Origin: a virus
Length of the DNA stretch: 20,282 bases
Strand: one strand, 5' to 3'
IMG/VR virus record: IMGVR_UViG_3300042539_000073
Coordinates: 1 to 20,282 of that record
Position 1 is the stretch's first letter, and the number at the start of each line of letters is the position of its first letter. The notes beneath the pieces were generated by a model. That model had not been told where the DNA came from and searched no databases. It saw nothing but the letters and a program-made list of their open reading frames with translations. This document shows positions 3,322 through 11,164 of the stretch, piece after piece. The position numbers and the translations under genes were made by a program.

Positions 3322-4332
3322 TTACTTGTATTTAGCGATTCTAGCAGCAACCCATTCTTCCGGACTCCCACTCTTTTCAAAGCGGCTGTATGCGTCCGTC
3401 ACCTTTGCCTTGGGGGATGTCGAGGACTTCGCAGCACCCGCTCCAAATGGGGACGGAGATGGACTGACTTTCAGTTTAGTCCCCACCGCAGGTTGCTTCT
3501 TGATTCTCGTTCCTCCATGGATGGAGTTGGCAGCATGAGCCAGGATGTATTCGATTTGGTAGCCAATTTCAGGAACTTGTTTGCGTAGCTTTTCGATAAG
3601 CGGGTCAGACATTAAATCCTTGAATTGTTTTCCGACAGTTGTGGTTTCATCCTTGATGTCGGGAACTTCTTCTTCTGCCGCAGCGATGTATTGACCTTTT
3701 AGCTGTTCCATCTGGGCGATCTGCTGAAGATGCGCCTGTTGAGCGGGAATGTATTTGGTCAACGCCTCACGTGCGTTTCGGTTAGCTTTACGAATCTGCT
3801 GCTTGGTGAACTCGCGGTCTCCAACTAGGATTATGTCTTCAGCACGATAATCTTCGTATTCCTCCAATAGTTCATCTGTTGAATCGAGGGTTTTCTCAAG
3901 CTCCTTGTATTTCGCCTTTAGGTCATCGAATGACTGTATTTCGCGGAATGGGTTTTGTTCTTGAGGGACTTCCTTGATTTCCGGCTGAGACTGAATCTTT
4001 TCCTCCAGGGCTTTCTTCTGAGCGGTTAGCTCGCCAATCCGTTGAAGGAGTCGGCTCTTACCCTTTTTGGCTAAAGATTGAATCTGCTCCGTGGTCAACG
4101 ACAGTAGATCAATTTCGCTTTCCTCTTCCTCCTCTTCGGGTTCTTCCTCTGTTTCGGTTTCCTCTTCTTCGGTGGGAATCTCTTCCTCCTCGGTTTCGGT
4201 TACTTCTTCTTCGGGTTGCTCCTCGGATTCAGGTTCTGGATTTTGTCTTGCCGTTCTCTGAGCTACAAGCTCTTCAAATGACAGGTTAGACACTGATTCG
4301 ATAGCTTCAGCGGTAGCTTCTGGATTGCTCAT
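3322..4332 (-). CDS. Scaffolding (head assembly) protein
   Basis: A 336-residue protein placed just before the major capsid gene, as scaffolds usually are. Residues about 32-73 form an almost pure glutamate tract with prolines and threonines. Residues about 75-215 are charged and heptad-like, consistent with a long coiled coil (KSRLLQRIGELTAQKKALEE). The C-terminus (about 275-336) is basic and proline/serine-rich and ends in a short amphipathic helix, SPEEWVAARIAKYK, the usual place for capsid binding. I chose the ATG at 4332, because the frame extends upstream only to a GTG at 4374 that would lie inside the candidate -10 element. No Shine-Dalgarno sequence is visible. It should guide procapsid assembly and then leave or be cleaved. 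The acidic tract is longer than in many scaffolds. Confidence 0.8.
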   Translation of the reverse strand: MSNPEATAEAIESVSNLSFEELVAQRTARQNPEPESEEQPEEEVTETEEEEIPTEEEETETEEEPEEEEEESEIDLLSLTTEQIQSLAKKGKSRLLQRIGELTAQKKALEEKIQSQPEIKEVPQEQNPFREIQSFDDLKAKYKELEKTLDSTDELLEEYEDYRAEDIILVGDREFTKQQIRKANRNAREALTKYIPAQQAHLQQIAQMEQLKGQYIAAAEEEVPDIKDETTTVGKQFKDLMSDPLIEKLRKQVPEIGYQIEYILAHAANSIHGGTRIKKQPAVGTKLKVSPSPSPFGAGAAKSSTSPKAKVTDAYSRFEKSGSPEEWVAARIAKYK

Positions 4333-4372
4333 ATTGGAAACGCCATTTACGCTCGGCGGTGCGATTTGCAGC

Positions 4373-4402
4373 ACACTAACGCAAATTTGTTACAGTTGTC
4401 AA
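4373..4402 (-). promoter_or_regulatory. Candidate sigma70-type promoter for head-gene block
   Basis: On the minus strand a perfect TTGACA (4402-4397) is followed after 18 bases by TAGTGT (4378-4373), or after 17 bases by TTAGTG. The -10 match is only partial. It lies about 40 bases upstream of the scaffold ATG at 4332 and points the right way to start the head block separately from the upstream operon. The perfect -35 and the location are the support; the poor -10 is the weakness. Confidence 0.35.
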
Positions 4403-4442: not shown

Positions 4443-4471
4443 TTGCGTTGTCAGAAAAACCTGCGTAGATT
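4443..4471 (+). promoter_or_regulatory. Candidate plus-strand promoter for the island RNA
   Basis: TTGCGT (4443-4448) and TAGATT (4466-4471) are separated by exactly 17 bases. The matches are partial: the first three bases of the -35 and four of six bases of the -10. The predicted start, near 4478, falls on the first base of a hairpin (4477-4498) that pairs loop-to-loop with the terminator hairpin downstream. It is back-to-back with the minus-strand promoter candidate at 4373-4402. Confidence 0.3.
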
Positions 4472-4476
4472 TCTGC

Positions 4477-4583
4477 CGACGAGAGGTAGGACTCATCGTT
4501 AAAGTTTTCCACGCCGCCGCTTAATCGCATGGCTTAAAGGACTAGCACGGGTTTTCCTACCTCCTCGTGCTAGTCCTTTTCAT
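4477..4583 (+). ncRNA. Candidate phage small RNA with complementary hairpin loops
   Basis: No open frame explains this stretch. A first hairpin pairs CGACGAG (4477-4483) with CTCATCG (4492-4498) with one mismatch and shows AGGTAGGA in its 8-base loop. The downstream terminator hairpin (4536-4579) shows TCCTACCT (4555-4562) in its 16-base loop, an exact 8-nt complement of the first loop. The terminator loop also contains ACCTCCT (4559-4565), identical to the 3' tail of 16S rRNA. A promoter candidate ends at 4471 and a T-rich tail follows the terminator, giving a transcript of roughly 105 nt. This could be a trans-acting small RNA or a switch. The structure is read directly; that it is transcribed is inference. 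Confidence 0.45.
4536..4583 (+). terminator. Intrinsic terminator with perfect 14-bp stem
   Basis: AAAGGACTAGCACG (4536-4549) pairs perfectly with CGTGCTAGTCCTTT (4566-4579) around a 16-base loop, and TCATTT follows on the plus strand. On the minus strand the bases after the stem are AAGCC, so plus-strand use is favoured, though the stem itself is symmetrical. It would end a transcript begun near 4478. Confidence 0.65.
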
Positions 4584-4584
4584 T

Positions 4585-4860
4585 TAGGCTAGTTTCTCTT
4601 GGAACAAGTCAGCCAGGAGAACGGGCAAAGGGGTCGCAAGACTTCATCACCATTAGGCTCGCGGCTAGCTCTGACTCCGATCTGTCACCTAGCATCCGTA
4701 ACGGCTACAATCCGAAGCGGGGGGAAGAGCGTAAAACCGAATCAGGTCTCTGGAAGCAGGGGTTCTGCATGGTGAACCAAGGAACATAGGAATGCGGCAA
4801 CGCAGCCCTAAGAGATCGGTTTGGCTTTATCCTCTCGGGGAGAATCTTTTTGAGCGAAGC
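4585..4860 (+). ncRNA. Candidate structured RNA region upstream of the plus-strand genes
   Basis: No convincing gene covers this stretch, but several helices nest on the plus strand. AGTCAG (4607-4612) pairs with CTGACT (4671-4676) and encloses a 6-bp hairpin with a GCAA tetraloop (4630-4645). A bulged hairpin with CCG TAA CGG lies at 4690-4707. A long helix pairs AAACCGA and TCTCT (4734-4740, 4747-4751) with AGAGATCGGTTT (4811-4822) and leaves ATCAGG as a bulge. Inside that helix are GGTTC/GAACC (4761-4778) and TGCG-GCAA-CGCA (4793-4804). A weak hairpin and CTTTTT tail follow near 4830-4855. I do not recognise a known riboswitch, ribozyme or intron class. It may be a leader of the downstream gene or a separate RNA. 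Confidence 0.4.
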
Positions 4861-4920
4861 GAACTGATTCTTCTTGATTTGACTGAGAGAAAAGGGAAAC
4901 TAACCCCGCAACACAAAAAC

Positions 4921-5340
4921 ATGAACGATAAATTCCAATTAGGACACGCAGGATGGAGTCCAGATTACGACTCTAATAAACCTCGCAAGCCTAATAACCT
5001 GAAACGAACCGAAAATATGCCGAAAGAATTTAACTGCCCGAACTCCGGATACGACTGCGGATACCCTGCATGCGCTCATGCTGGCCAGTGCCGAAAACAC
5101 CCGATAGCCGTTCAAACCTACACGATTAAGGAGATCGCTGACTACATCGCAGGGTGGTCGATGGCTCCTTATAATGAGGTGGAGAAGATCGGGGCTGCTA
5201 CGCTCGCCAACGCTCTATCCCAACTTGAAGACGACCAAGACGGCATTGAAGCTGTCCGTCAGAGGAAAATTTATAGCAAGAACGCAATAGGTGAGGCACG
5301 GGCGGACAACGCCGCTCCGCCTCACCAGAAAGGAAACTAA
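4921..5340 (+). CDS. Unknown plus-strand phage protein with cysteine cluster
   Basis: A 139-residue protein on the strand opposite to the structural genes. After a hydrophilic start it has a cysteine cluster, CPNSGYDCGYPACAHAGQC (about residues 38-56), which could bind a metal. A helical domain follows with YTIKEIADYIAGWS and TLANALSQLEDDQDGIEAVR (about residues 66-120). That second half resembles small proteins seen in other phages, but I cannot name a family. The frame is open further upstream to 4792, through the structured RNA region; the ATG at 4921 is preferred because the protein character changes there. A later ATG at 5017 is also possible. An AAAGGGAAACTAACC motif lies some 16-30 bases upstream. 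Function unknown; an early or regulatory role is a guess from strand and position. Confidence 0.6.
   Translation: MNDKFQLGHAGWSPDYDSNKPRKPNNLKRTENMPKEFNCPNSGYDCGYPACAHAGQCRKHPIAVQTYTIKEIADYIAGWSMAPYNEVEKIGAATLANALSQLEDDQDGIEAVRQRKIYSKNAIGEARADNAAPPHQKGN
5290..5326 (+). repeat. Inverted repeat (hairpin) at the end of the first plus-strand gene
   Basis: GGTGAGGC (5290-5297) and GCCTCACC (5319-5326) are perfect 8-bp complements. Inside them GGCG (5301-5304) pairs with CGCC (5310-5313). The hairpin lies within the last codons of the gene ending at 5340 and just before the ribosome binding site of the gene at 5345. It could slow ribosomes, protect the message or tune the downstream gene. There is no T tract, so it is not a typical terminator. 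Confidence 0.5.
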
Positions 5341-5344
5341 CCAC

Positions 5345-5578
5345 ATGGAAACTTCGACACACGCCGCCCCGCCCGTTGATCTCGACCGACTTGTTCGGCT
5401 TTGGGAGTTGCTTCGCTACAATCGCTACACCCTATTCGCCGGAATCGTCTGGCGACCAGTTACCGGAGATGAAGGCGACGCATGGCTCCAATCATGGCGG
5501 AAATATCGAATGTCATGGCAAACCGCGTGGGACGTGGCTTGCGTGATTTATCCTCTCCCGAACAGCCAAGATCACTGA
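5345..5578 (+). CDS. Unknown small plus-strand protein
   Basis: A 77-residue protein with many aromatic and tryptophan residues: RLVRLWELLRYNRYTLFAGI (about residues 15-34), GDAWLQSWRKYRMSWQTAWD and CVIYPLP. No family is recognised, and there is no clear signal peptide or membrane segment. The frame opens at 5291 inside the previous gene, but the ATG at 5345 is chosen because AAAGGA (5330-5335) sits 9 bases before it and the start follows the upstream stop by four bases. The leader GGAAACTAACC repeats the one before the first plus-strand gene. It is co-transcribed with that gene and ends before a cluster of hairpins. The tight packing and good start signal support a real gene; the function is unknown. 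Confidence 0.6.
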   Translation: METSTHAAPPVDLDRLVRLWELLRYNRYTLFAGIVWRPVTGDEGDAWLQSWRKYRMSWQTAWDVACVIYPLPNSQDH

Positions 5579-5618
5579 CGCGCAGCGTTCAGTGTATCGA
5601 CATGTTCAAACAGAAGAA

Positions 5619-5698
5619 CCGTAGAGGATTAACCCCTACGGCTCTCTGAACACACAAACACGCCGAAAACGAAACGGCGAAGCAATAAAAGCAGAGAG
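5619..5698. terminator. Convergent terminator-like hairpin cluster
   Basis: Two hairpins lie between the end of the plus-strand genes and the end of the minus-strand small-gene cluster. CCGTAG (5619-5624) pairs with CTACGG (5636-5641) plus two inner G-C pairs. CGCCG (5661-5665) pairs with CGGCG (5675-5679) around a 9-base loop. A further 7-bp stem, CTCTCTG (5642-5648) with CAGAGAG (5692-5698), encloses the second. Read on the minus strand both hairpins are followed by T/G-rich tails (TTCTTCTGTTT and TGTTTGTGTGTT), so termination of the minus operon is more likely than of the plus genes. No perfect T run is present. Confidence 0.5.
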
Positions 5699-9050: not shown

Positions 9051-10652
9051 TTAATAGCCTCCACCTCCCTGAGTTGTAACCAAACTGACGGAATTGTCAA
9101 CGTGATCTATTCCAGAAATTGCTGCGTAACGCAAAACGTCAATAACGTCCTTCCATGCCTCTTTTAATCCGCCGTCTCCGGTGTATTCTGACAACCCTTG
9201 GATGATGTTCTCGCAGTCGGAACTAATGTAGAAATGCGGGCGGTTGACAGAATCCAACGGCTTAGAAGTATCCCATGCCATTTTTCCGATCAATGCTTGC
9301 AGTCCGTCGTCAATATCCAATCCAGGAGCAGGGATGCAAACCATCCCAGATTCGTTCAAATCCTCAATAATGGAGGACGAACCGTCTTGAACCTGATACT
9401 TCGCGGCTCCTAGTCTAGGGTCGATTATTCGTTCAAAAATCTCTTCATCTTCCTCTACGTTCTCAATAAGCTCAATGTAGTCACGGATACCGTAGCCTTG
9501 CCCTTTTGCGCCCTCTCCAGGCATCCACTTGCCGTTCCGCCATTCCGCCCAGTCGCCTACGTCAACTCCAGGCCATTCGCGGTAAACCCAAAATGTTCCC
9601 GTTTCGTCCACGGCAATCCAGCACATGAACCAGTTCTTTGATCCAGCGGGGTCGATGATATGATACCTTGTGATGTTGGTCTTCGGTATCTTGTCCGGCT
9701 CCACCACGTTAACCACCTTGTTGAACTTGGGAAACTTGGTGGCGGCTGCTTTAGTTGGTATGCCGTAAGCCCTAATTAAGATTTCCTCTCTCGGTTTACC
9801 GATCAATGTTTGCTTTATTCGGTCGTAACCACCAAAAGGGTTATCTTGAGAGTGGAAATAATGGACAGTTCCCTTGATGTTTTTACACTCAAGAATTGTC
9901 GGCACGATCTCATTATCCAGAAGTTCAGCCTCTCGACTCTCAATAATCTTAGCTCCGTCAAGATACTGCTTTATCAATTCAGTGTATCCAAAAATAGGAG
10001 TGAACGTAAGCATCATCTTACTGTTTCTGGTCGCTAATCGGAATCTTAACGTGTCGATTATCTCTGGACCACCAAGCATCTCATCACACCATGCGCCAAT
10101 GTTTAGCCAAGTTGCTTCTTTTGATCCAAGCTCTGCGCCCTCAAGAATCGTTTGATTGTTTGCAAACGCTGCGTAGGTCTTAAAAGAAATACGGGAGCCA
10201 TTTGGAAGAATCAATGAGTTGTCAGTCCAGCCATTTTTCCTTGAGTAAGACAGATAGGTGTTCTGGCTTGTCTGCTTGCTCTTAAATTCGGCTGGCATCC
10301 AGTCATACACGGCAGCTTGTTGTTGACGAATAGAAACCTCGGCGTTTTGAGCGAAACAAAAAATGTCAGAATTGGGGTTTTCAATAGCCGCTTTAACCAC
10401 AAAGTAAGCACCGACCTGCGTTTTCGACGACCGATTTCCTCCGCTGATTAAGACTTCGTTTCTGGTTGATAAGTATTCTTCAACCTTCCTCCAGTTTTCA
10501 AACTTCCATCCATATCTAAACGGGTCTCTTGCCGCATTACGAATAGCCTCCTCACGAATTTGATGAAACTCCATCAATTCCTCAGCACTCATCTGAGTGA
10601 TTTCTTCATCCGTAGGAACGGGAAGAACTGGATGATCCGTCCACTTTAGCAT
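9051..10652 (-). CDS. terL: Terminase large subunit (packaging ATPase and nuclease)
   Basis: A 533-residue protein with both terminase domains. The ATPase domain has a Walker A-like GGNRSSKT (residues 71-78), an aspartate-glutamate Walker B at the end of TWLNIGAWCDE (181-191) and a coupling motif MLTFTP (214-219). The RNase H-like nuclease domain has Asp334 in HIIDPAG, Asp411 in IIDPRLG and an aspartate pair in KDVIDVLRYA (502-505) as likely metal ligands. It would pump DNA through the portal and cut the concatemer. The Walker A has Ser-Ser-Lys instead of Ser-Gly-Lys, which is a known kind of variation in terminases. The ATG overlaps the end of the HNH gene by seven bases (ATGCTAA). Length and motifs fit an intact enzyme. 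Confidence 0.93.
   Translation of the reverse strand: MLKWTDHPVLPVPTDEEITQMSAEELMEFHQIREEAIRNAARDPFRYGWKFENWRKVEEYLSTRNEVLISGGNRSSKTQVGAYFVVKAAIENPNSDIFCFAQNAEVSIRQQQAAVYDWMPAEFKSKQTSQNTYLSYSRKNGWTDNSLILPNGSRISFKTYAAFANNQTILEGAELGSKEATWLNIGAWCDEMLGGPEIIDTLRFRLATRNSKMMLTFTPIFGYTELIKQYLDGAKIIESREAELLDNEIVPTILECKNIKGTVHYFHSQDNPFGGYDRIKQTLIGKPREEILIRAYGIPTKAAATKFPKFNKVVNVVEPDKIPKTNITRYHIIDPAGSKNWFMCWIAVDETGTFWVYREWPGVDVGDWAEWRNGKWMPGEGAKGQGYGIRDYIELIENVEEDEEIFERIIDPRLGAAKYQVQDGSSSIIEDLNESGMVCIPAPGLDIDDGLQALIGKMAWDTSKPLDSVNRPHFYISSDCENIIQGLSEYTGDGGLKEAWKDVIDVLRYAAISGIDHVDNSVSLVTTQGGGGY
9058..9070 (-). promoter_or_regulatory. Strong Shine-Dalgarno deciding the 9049 start
   Basis: On the minus strand AGGGAGGTGGAGG (9070-9058) lies 8 bases before the ATG at 9049. 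It overlaps the last codons of TerL (the Gly-rich tail). It is the best ribosome binding site in the window and argues against the earlier start at 9100. Confidence 0.65.
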
Positions 10653-11164
10653 TTTGCAAACTCTCCCCTGATTTCTTGCGCTTTAAGCATGTAAGCGTTT
10701 GCCGCTGCTTCTCTTGTTTTGAATCTTCCGATGTTAACGCTCTTTCTGTTTACCATCATCTGCGCCCTCCATCTATTTGTTGTCTTGCAGAAAACCACTC
10801 CCTTCATTCCAGAGGTGTTGTTTTTATTGCAACCACGGTTGAACATATTTTCTGAACGGCTTGCGACTCTTAGATTTACAATTCTATTGTCTGACTTGTC
10901 TTCGTTTATGTGGTCAATATCTCCAATAGGCCATGAGCCATTGCAAAACGCCCAAGCTAATCGGTGCGCGTAATACTGCTTGCCAGAAATCCATATTGAA
11001 ACATATCCACGCCAATTTGCGTTTCCTGCAACATCACCAGCATTGCTAGTTTTTGTTTTTACCTTCCAGACAAAAATGCCCGTTTCTGAATTGTAATCCA
11101 AATAATCGGATATGTTCTTGACATCAATCAATTCTTCTGACTTATTTTTCTCAGCACTTTTCAT
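10646..11164 (-). CDS. HNH homing-type endonuclease with AP2-like DNA-binding domain
   Basis: A 172-residue protein. The HNH nuclease lies at about residues 60-105: YYAHRLAWAF, then DIDHIN (His85), Asn93 and NLRV around Asn97. An AP2/ERF-like DNA-binding domain follows at about residues 113-170 (NTSGMKGVVF, RWRAQMMV, IGRFKTREAAANAYMLKA). HNH plus AP2 is the standard layout of free-standing phage homing endonucleases, which cut related phages lacking the gene and so spread. It stands between the two terminase subunits. Its stop overlaps the TerL start by seven bases, so it is built into the operon and may be translationally coupled to TerL. A 64-base gap with a hairpin precedes it, and no Shine-Dalgarno sequence is seen before the ATG. 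Key residues look intact. Confidence 0.88.
   Translation of the reverse strand: MKSAEKNKSEELIDVKNISDYLDYNSETGIFVWKVKTKTSNAGDVAGNANWRGYVSIWISGKQYYAHRLAWAFCNGSWPIGDIDHINEDKSDNRIVNLRVASRSENMFNRGCNKNNTSGMKGVVFCKTTNRWRAQMMVNRKSVNIGRFKTREAAANAYMLKAQEIRGEFAKC

Follow-up and report, generated by a model that had tools for sequence, protein, structure and literature searches.

Between a scaffold-like gene and a group of small ORFs, a virus fragment from IMG/VR carries two closely spaced hairpins with exactly complementary loops. What keeps these loops complementary, and with which partner would they pair: each other within one RNA molecule, or the loops of another copy? The initial annotation took this region for a phage small RNA of roughly 105 nt, or a terminator/antiterminator switch, and knew of no described RNA with such a layout. 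We compared the region with its relatives in viral contigs, and this sequence comparison bears out the putative small RNA, with its kissing loops and its terminator end.

Genomic setting

The fragment of 20,282 bases, all of which was analyzed and is called the window here, encodes terminase, portal, scaffold-like and capsid proteins, all on the minus strand. The three-hairpin cassette described below is flanked by the scaffold-like gene (3322-4374, minus) and by an accessory island of small plus-strand ORFs (ATG 4921; Table 1). Searches of Pfam and PHROGs with the first ORF of this island gave no match. Further small ORFs lie at 5291-5649 on the plus strand, convergent with the late genes and within the variable island; the ORF at 5291-5578 had no Pfam match. 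Next to the terminase gene is an HNH endonuclease ORF of the PHROG 99 family (10646-11164, minus), which is likely a free-standing homing endonuclease.

A DNA search of named phages with the region and two of its relatives gave no match. The only clear named relative of this virus is phage C75C1 (capsid 53%, portal 54%), from which the cassette is absent. The 18 proteins scanned in a near-complete relative, G019, include ERF, DnaB, DnaA-C and HNH domains; an integrase was not found among them. A search for the host, by way of the downstream RNA in genome contigs, returned six matches of only 19-21 nt, which are chance.

A sigma-70-like promoter and a predicted three-hairpin RNA

Relatives were collected from viral contigs by capsid-protein scans and by pattern scans; three loci from the first pattern scan (L083, L089, L090) proved to be chance matches inside coding sequence and were discarded. 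About 100 IMG/VR loci, partly overlapping, show the same order of elements: a conserved sigma-70-like promoter, then a predicted three-hairpin RNA of ~105 nt. The promoter candidate, whose transcription start had been placed on the first base of the first hairpin, holds up in this comparison. In the window itself only 7 of 12 positions match the consensus, and a consensus promoter scan did not pick up 4443-4471; in 43 of 58 relatives, however, the sequence at this position (TTGAC-N17-TANNNT type) matches at 9 or more of 12, and across relatives the promoter ahead of P1 is of the type TTGAC/TTGCG-N17-TANNNT.

Table 1. Features of the cassette and its surroundings; positions are those of the window unless a locus is named.
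Feature	Position	Strand	Basis or remark
Sigma-70-like promoter TTGCGT-N17-TAGATT	4443..4471	+	Predicted start near 4478
P1, 5' hairpin, conserved stem GACGA/UCGUY	4477..4502	+	Sequence, folds, alignment
P1 kissing strand GAGGTAGGA	4483..4491	+	Perfect complement of 4555-4563
P2, small variable middle hairpin, GCC..GGC in the window	4513..4533	+	Window fold
P3, intrinsic terminator hairpin, interrupted U tract	4536..4583	+	14-16 bp
P3 kissing strand TCCTACCTC	4555..4563	+	Perfect complement of 4483-4491
Type A structured RNA element, about 275 nt	4588..4862	+	RNAalifold; read-through predicted
First small ORF of the accessory island	4921..5340	+	ORF list, ATG 4921
Examples of types A-F	4588-4862; L077:4231-4555; L002:4098-4420; L054; L027:3989-4243; L214:8010-8434

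Both annotated hairpins are present. The first (4477-4498, CGACGAG-AGGTAGGA-CTCATCG) has one C.A mismatch and by energy forms as GACGA/TCGTT plus GAG/CTC (-8.5 kcal/mol). The terminator hairpin (4536-4579, AAAGGACTAGCACG-GGTTTTCCTACCTCCT-CGTGCTAGTCCTTT) is a perfect 14-bp stem, or 16 bp with the inner pairs, and folds at about -25 kcal/mol (z = -7.2); for the region as a whole, z is -4.1. The equivalents of P2 in relatives are paired hairpins, as judged by eye. On a scale of the d'Aubenton-Carafa type, P3 scores above 0, as an intrinsic terminator should, in 44 of the 49 distinct homologues. Its 33 distinct stem pairs contain mismatches at 7 of 462 pairs and 7.4% G-U, and 46-60 nt separate P1 from P3 in one RNA.

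At the gathering score, none of the Rfam 15 covariance models matched the window or six relatives; the best was a weak match to LOOT, whose 15.3 bits fall below the cut-off of 46.4. We found no description of this RNA in the open-access literature. On the comparison of relatives it is a new RNA family, in which a tertiary or quaternary contact covaries unusually cleanly.

The loops are exact and covarying complements

The loop match had been given as 8 nt. It is perfect, as claimed, and is kept in relatives, but it is 9 nt long in the window. In relatives the P1 and P3 loops are perfect Watson-Crick complements over 8-11 nt and fall into 22 different canonical loop pairs, or 19 when only the 8-bp core is compared. 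Though their letters differ, the following P1 loops each have an exact complement in P3: AGGTAGGA, AGGTAGCA, AAGTAGAG, AGGTCGAA, AGGTTGCA, GACCGAAA, AAGTCAGA, GAGTTGGA, AGATAGGA, AGATGAGG, AGGTTGGA, AGGTAAGA, AAGTGAGG, GAGTCGGA, AAGTAGGA, AGGTCGGA, GAGTAAGC, GACGGGGG and AAGTGAGA. Five further pairs form a second class of reversed polarity, with pyrimidines in P1 and purines in P3. Compensating changes in the loops, which the initial annotation had proposed to look for among related phages, are present: the complement is kept and letters change on both sides in every column of the core, where all 176 pairs are Watson-Crick and none is G-U. The strictness of this helix is striking beside the 7% G-U of the terminator stems.

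Such a difference between core and stem would be explained if the complementarity arose at the DNA level, by template switching that copies changes between the arms, and were mutational rather than selected. However, the two arms are short, with about 60 nt between them, and the match falls exactly in two loops, above conserved stems and downstream of a conserved promoter; we regard an origin of this kind as extremely unlikely.

As the cassette detector demanded 8 complementary bases, circularity was checked with sets picked without that demand. When the terminator stem alone was searched for, the complement was present in 38 of 39 homologues; five other stem matches fell in unrelated coding sequence or read a palindromic stem on its reverse strand. 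It was likewise present in 18 of 18 homologues found by P1 only, in 14 of 14 found by the flipped terminator only, and in 25 of 26 found by the linker only (one unrelated match left out), and loops reached through the downstream-RNA search were complementary too. A single locus, L223 (640-760), accounts for the failure in both incomplete sets: it joins the P1 of one allele to the P3 of a second, as a recombinant (an allele hybrid) or a misassembly would. Two divergent loci, L155 and L163, have only 6-7 complementary bases, counted by eye.

These blind searches are the main evidence for loop complementarity. Pairs were also counted on strands anchored at the loops, with a constant artificial spacer linking them, since plain MAFFT misregisters the P3 loop. 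In that alignment 97% of cells pair and the covariation score is 0.845 (0.286 when shuffled, with 0.845 reached by 0 of 500 shuffles), a count that is biased if taken alone because anchoring aligns on the complementary stretch; a one-base slide lowers the score to 0.16 or less. Because complementarity stays perfect in relatives with different loops, chance is ruled out, and on this comparison the pairing between the P1 and P3 loops is real.

No third site shared or covarying with the loops was found elsewhere in the phage in 14 contigs, so that each loop has the other as its partner. This bears on a possible role as an antisense regulator, in which a C/U-rich, anti-Shine-Dalgarno-like P3 loop would target mRNAs and the P1 loop would act as its lid. 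Most P3 loops are indeed pyrimidine-rich (ACCUCC), but the loops vary widely, the flipped class has a purine P3 loop, there is no conserved second target, and no clear Shine-Dalgarno sequence was seen at the ORFs examined; we consider this role very unlikely.

The initial annotation also proposed that the first stem could open into a 12-bp duplex with one bulge, competing with both hairpins. The duplex exists (-20.5 kcal/mol), but beyond the kiss, where P1 would extend into the stem of P3, it does no better than shuffled flanks, and a role as a competing antiterminator is not supported.

The partner of P1 may be the P3 of the same molecule or that of another, and complementarity alone does not tell the two apart. 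If the kiss is intramolecular only, an exact loop-loop helix would fold a stable, pseudoknotted small RNA that acts on a protein or host RNA elsewhere, and the loop letters would drift together or be exchanged with the cassette. The 46-60 nt spacing of P1 and P3 in one RNA, the strictly Watson-Crick pairing and the lack of a covarying third site in the phage contigs agree with this reading. Its difficulty is the behavior of the loops among close relatives.

Loops as alleles of an accessory element

Among locus pairs whose downstream RNAs are at least 85% identical, 151 of 221 have different loops (the pairs are not independent). L208 and L206, for example, are 99.6% identical downstream and carry the loops CGAAGTAGGA and GAGGTCGGA; L059 and L250 have the same loop pair ahead of different downstream RNAs (types C and A). 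Two genomes, G007 (L168/L169) and G002 (L182/L183), each contain two cassettes, of opposite loop polarity and at different loci; the loops are complementary over 9 bases within a cassette, but over at most 5 between the two. In these comparisons the loops behave as alleles: loop pairs switch together on unchanged stems and downstream RNA, which suggests that the loops are a specificity tag.

This allelic behavior is an argument for recognition between molecules. Loop pairs that differ at 97-99.6% downstream identity exceed slow drift unless the cassette recombines, and we judge a purely intramolecular kiss to be possible, though improbable on balance. The main alternative to intermolecular recognition is recombination of the cassette without selection.

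Of 180 capsid-relative loci that extend far enough upstream (overlapping contigs counted), 79 had no detected cassette, some of them with a capsid protein 94% identical; the cassette is thus an accessory element. This distribution bears on a further possibility, in which P1 kisses the P3 of the next RNA to give a dimer or ring, with private loops that would exclude siblings. The phi29-family pRNA has two complementary loops in one phage RNA, with complementarity kept through change, and the two loops of the cassette covary likewise; the cassette also adjoins head genes. Unlike pRNA, however, the cassette is not near-universal, and its size and folds differ, with a terminator at the end and a kiss of 8-11 bp. 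Large structured phage-borne RNAs with conserved intermolecular kissing loops do exist (GOLLD and ROOL; PMC12286853); they are larger than the cassette RNA, which has no Rfam match. Since the cassette is missing from many close relatives, it is no essential packaging part, and we think a homo-oligomer clearly improbable.

What follows the terminator

P3 is usually followed, within a few tens of bases, by one of at least six elements of ~170-300 nt (types A-F). Types A and C are covarying structured RNAs: RNAalifold gives type A 77 pairs, 19 of them kept through two-sided changes, and type C has two-sided changes at 10 of 58 pairs. Types B, D, E and F are conserved in sequence and non-coding-looking; type B contains a tRNA T-arm-like GGTTCAATCC. 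No Rfam match was found for the downstream elements in the loci searched. The elements are swapped behind the same small-RNA module, and in two loci (L008, L024) an ORF begins 32-38 nt past P3 instead, leaving a cassette without a large RNA.

At the junction of P3 with the downstream element, the promoter match never exceeds 8 of 12 among relatives. Because no promoter comparable to that of P1 is found there, the downstream element is likely expressed by read-through of a leaky P3. In a broader sense the cassette may still be a terminator/antiterminator switch, since past P3 lies a conserved RNA element or an ORF and the junction lacks a promoter like that of P1.

Discussion

How, then, could a small RNA with two mutually complementary loops serve the phage? 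Our best reading is that this phage RNA, possibly a leaky leader, recognizes itself specifically through its kissing loops. Transcription would begin on P1 from the sigma-70 promoter, and P1, P2 and the terminator P3 would make up the ~105-nt RNA, whose P1 and P3 loops would kiss in a helix of 8-11 strictly Watson-Crick pairs with both stems closed. P3 would terminate most transcripts, some polymerase continuing into the large structured RNA or the small ORFs. The released RNA would recognize its own kind, be it a further copy or its nascent leader; RNAs from sibling phages, or from a second cassette elsewhere in the genome, would go unrecognized. Most likely this would serve for self-specific feedback on read-through, with a logic like that of plasmid antisense attenuators.

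We hold this explanation, an accessory cassette whose allele-specific tag provides feedback on its own read-through, tentatively, as something a little short of probable. Against it, no antiterminator fold is supported, a purely intramolecular kiss accounts for the complementarity without a role in trans, the allele swaps may reflect a short cassette recombining in the ordinary way, with no selection, and the cassettes of L008 and L024 stand without a large RNA. The wider proposal of RNA-only phage self-recognition, with both halves of the tag in one small RNA that is proof against siblings and second cassettes and gates large RNAs, seems to us rather unlikely.

Parts of the proposed feedback have precedents. 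In ColE1 RNA I/RNA II and other plasmid incompatibility loops, loop alleles set self and non-self by kissing; there the partners are opposite-strand transcripts, whereas the cassette has both loops in one RNA. The P4 CI RNA is a short, leader-derived phage RNA with complementary segments that determines immunity specificity. The c4 RNA of P1 and P7, a short phage RNA from a leader, also has complementary segments and determines immunity specificity (PMC12197685). Both pair with separate leader or mRNA sites, in contrast to the cassette, for which 14 contigs contained no shared third site. Antisense transcription attenuators of the pT181 type combine a 5' sensing hairpin with an intrinsic terminator, take their specificity from kissing loops, and yield orthogonal variants by loop changes (PMC4878617). 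By sequence, the cassette resembles them in placing an intrinsic terminator behind a 5' sensing hairpin. It differs in apparently having no separate antisense gene, in the mutual complementarity of its sensor and terminator loops, and in that no antiterminator strand was found.

Behind the cassette lie at least six kinds of phage RNA element that appear to be undescribed, and the natural alleles of the cassette alter specificity on a fixed scaffold. If pairing in trans is confirmed, the cassettes would offer a natural collection of orthogonal kissing-loop terminators, ready for use, and would represent RNA-only recognition of self and non-self among phages.
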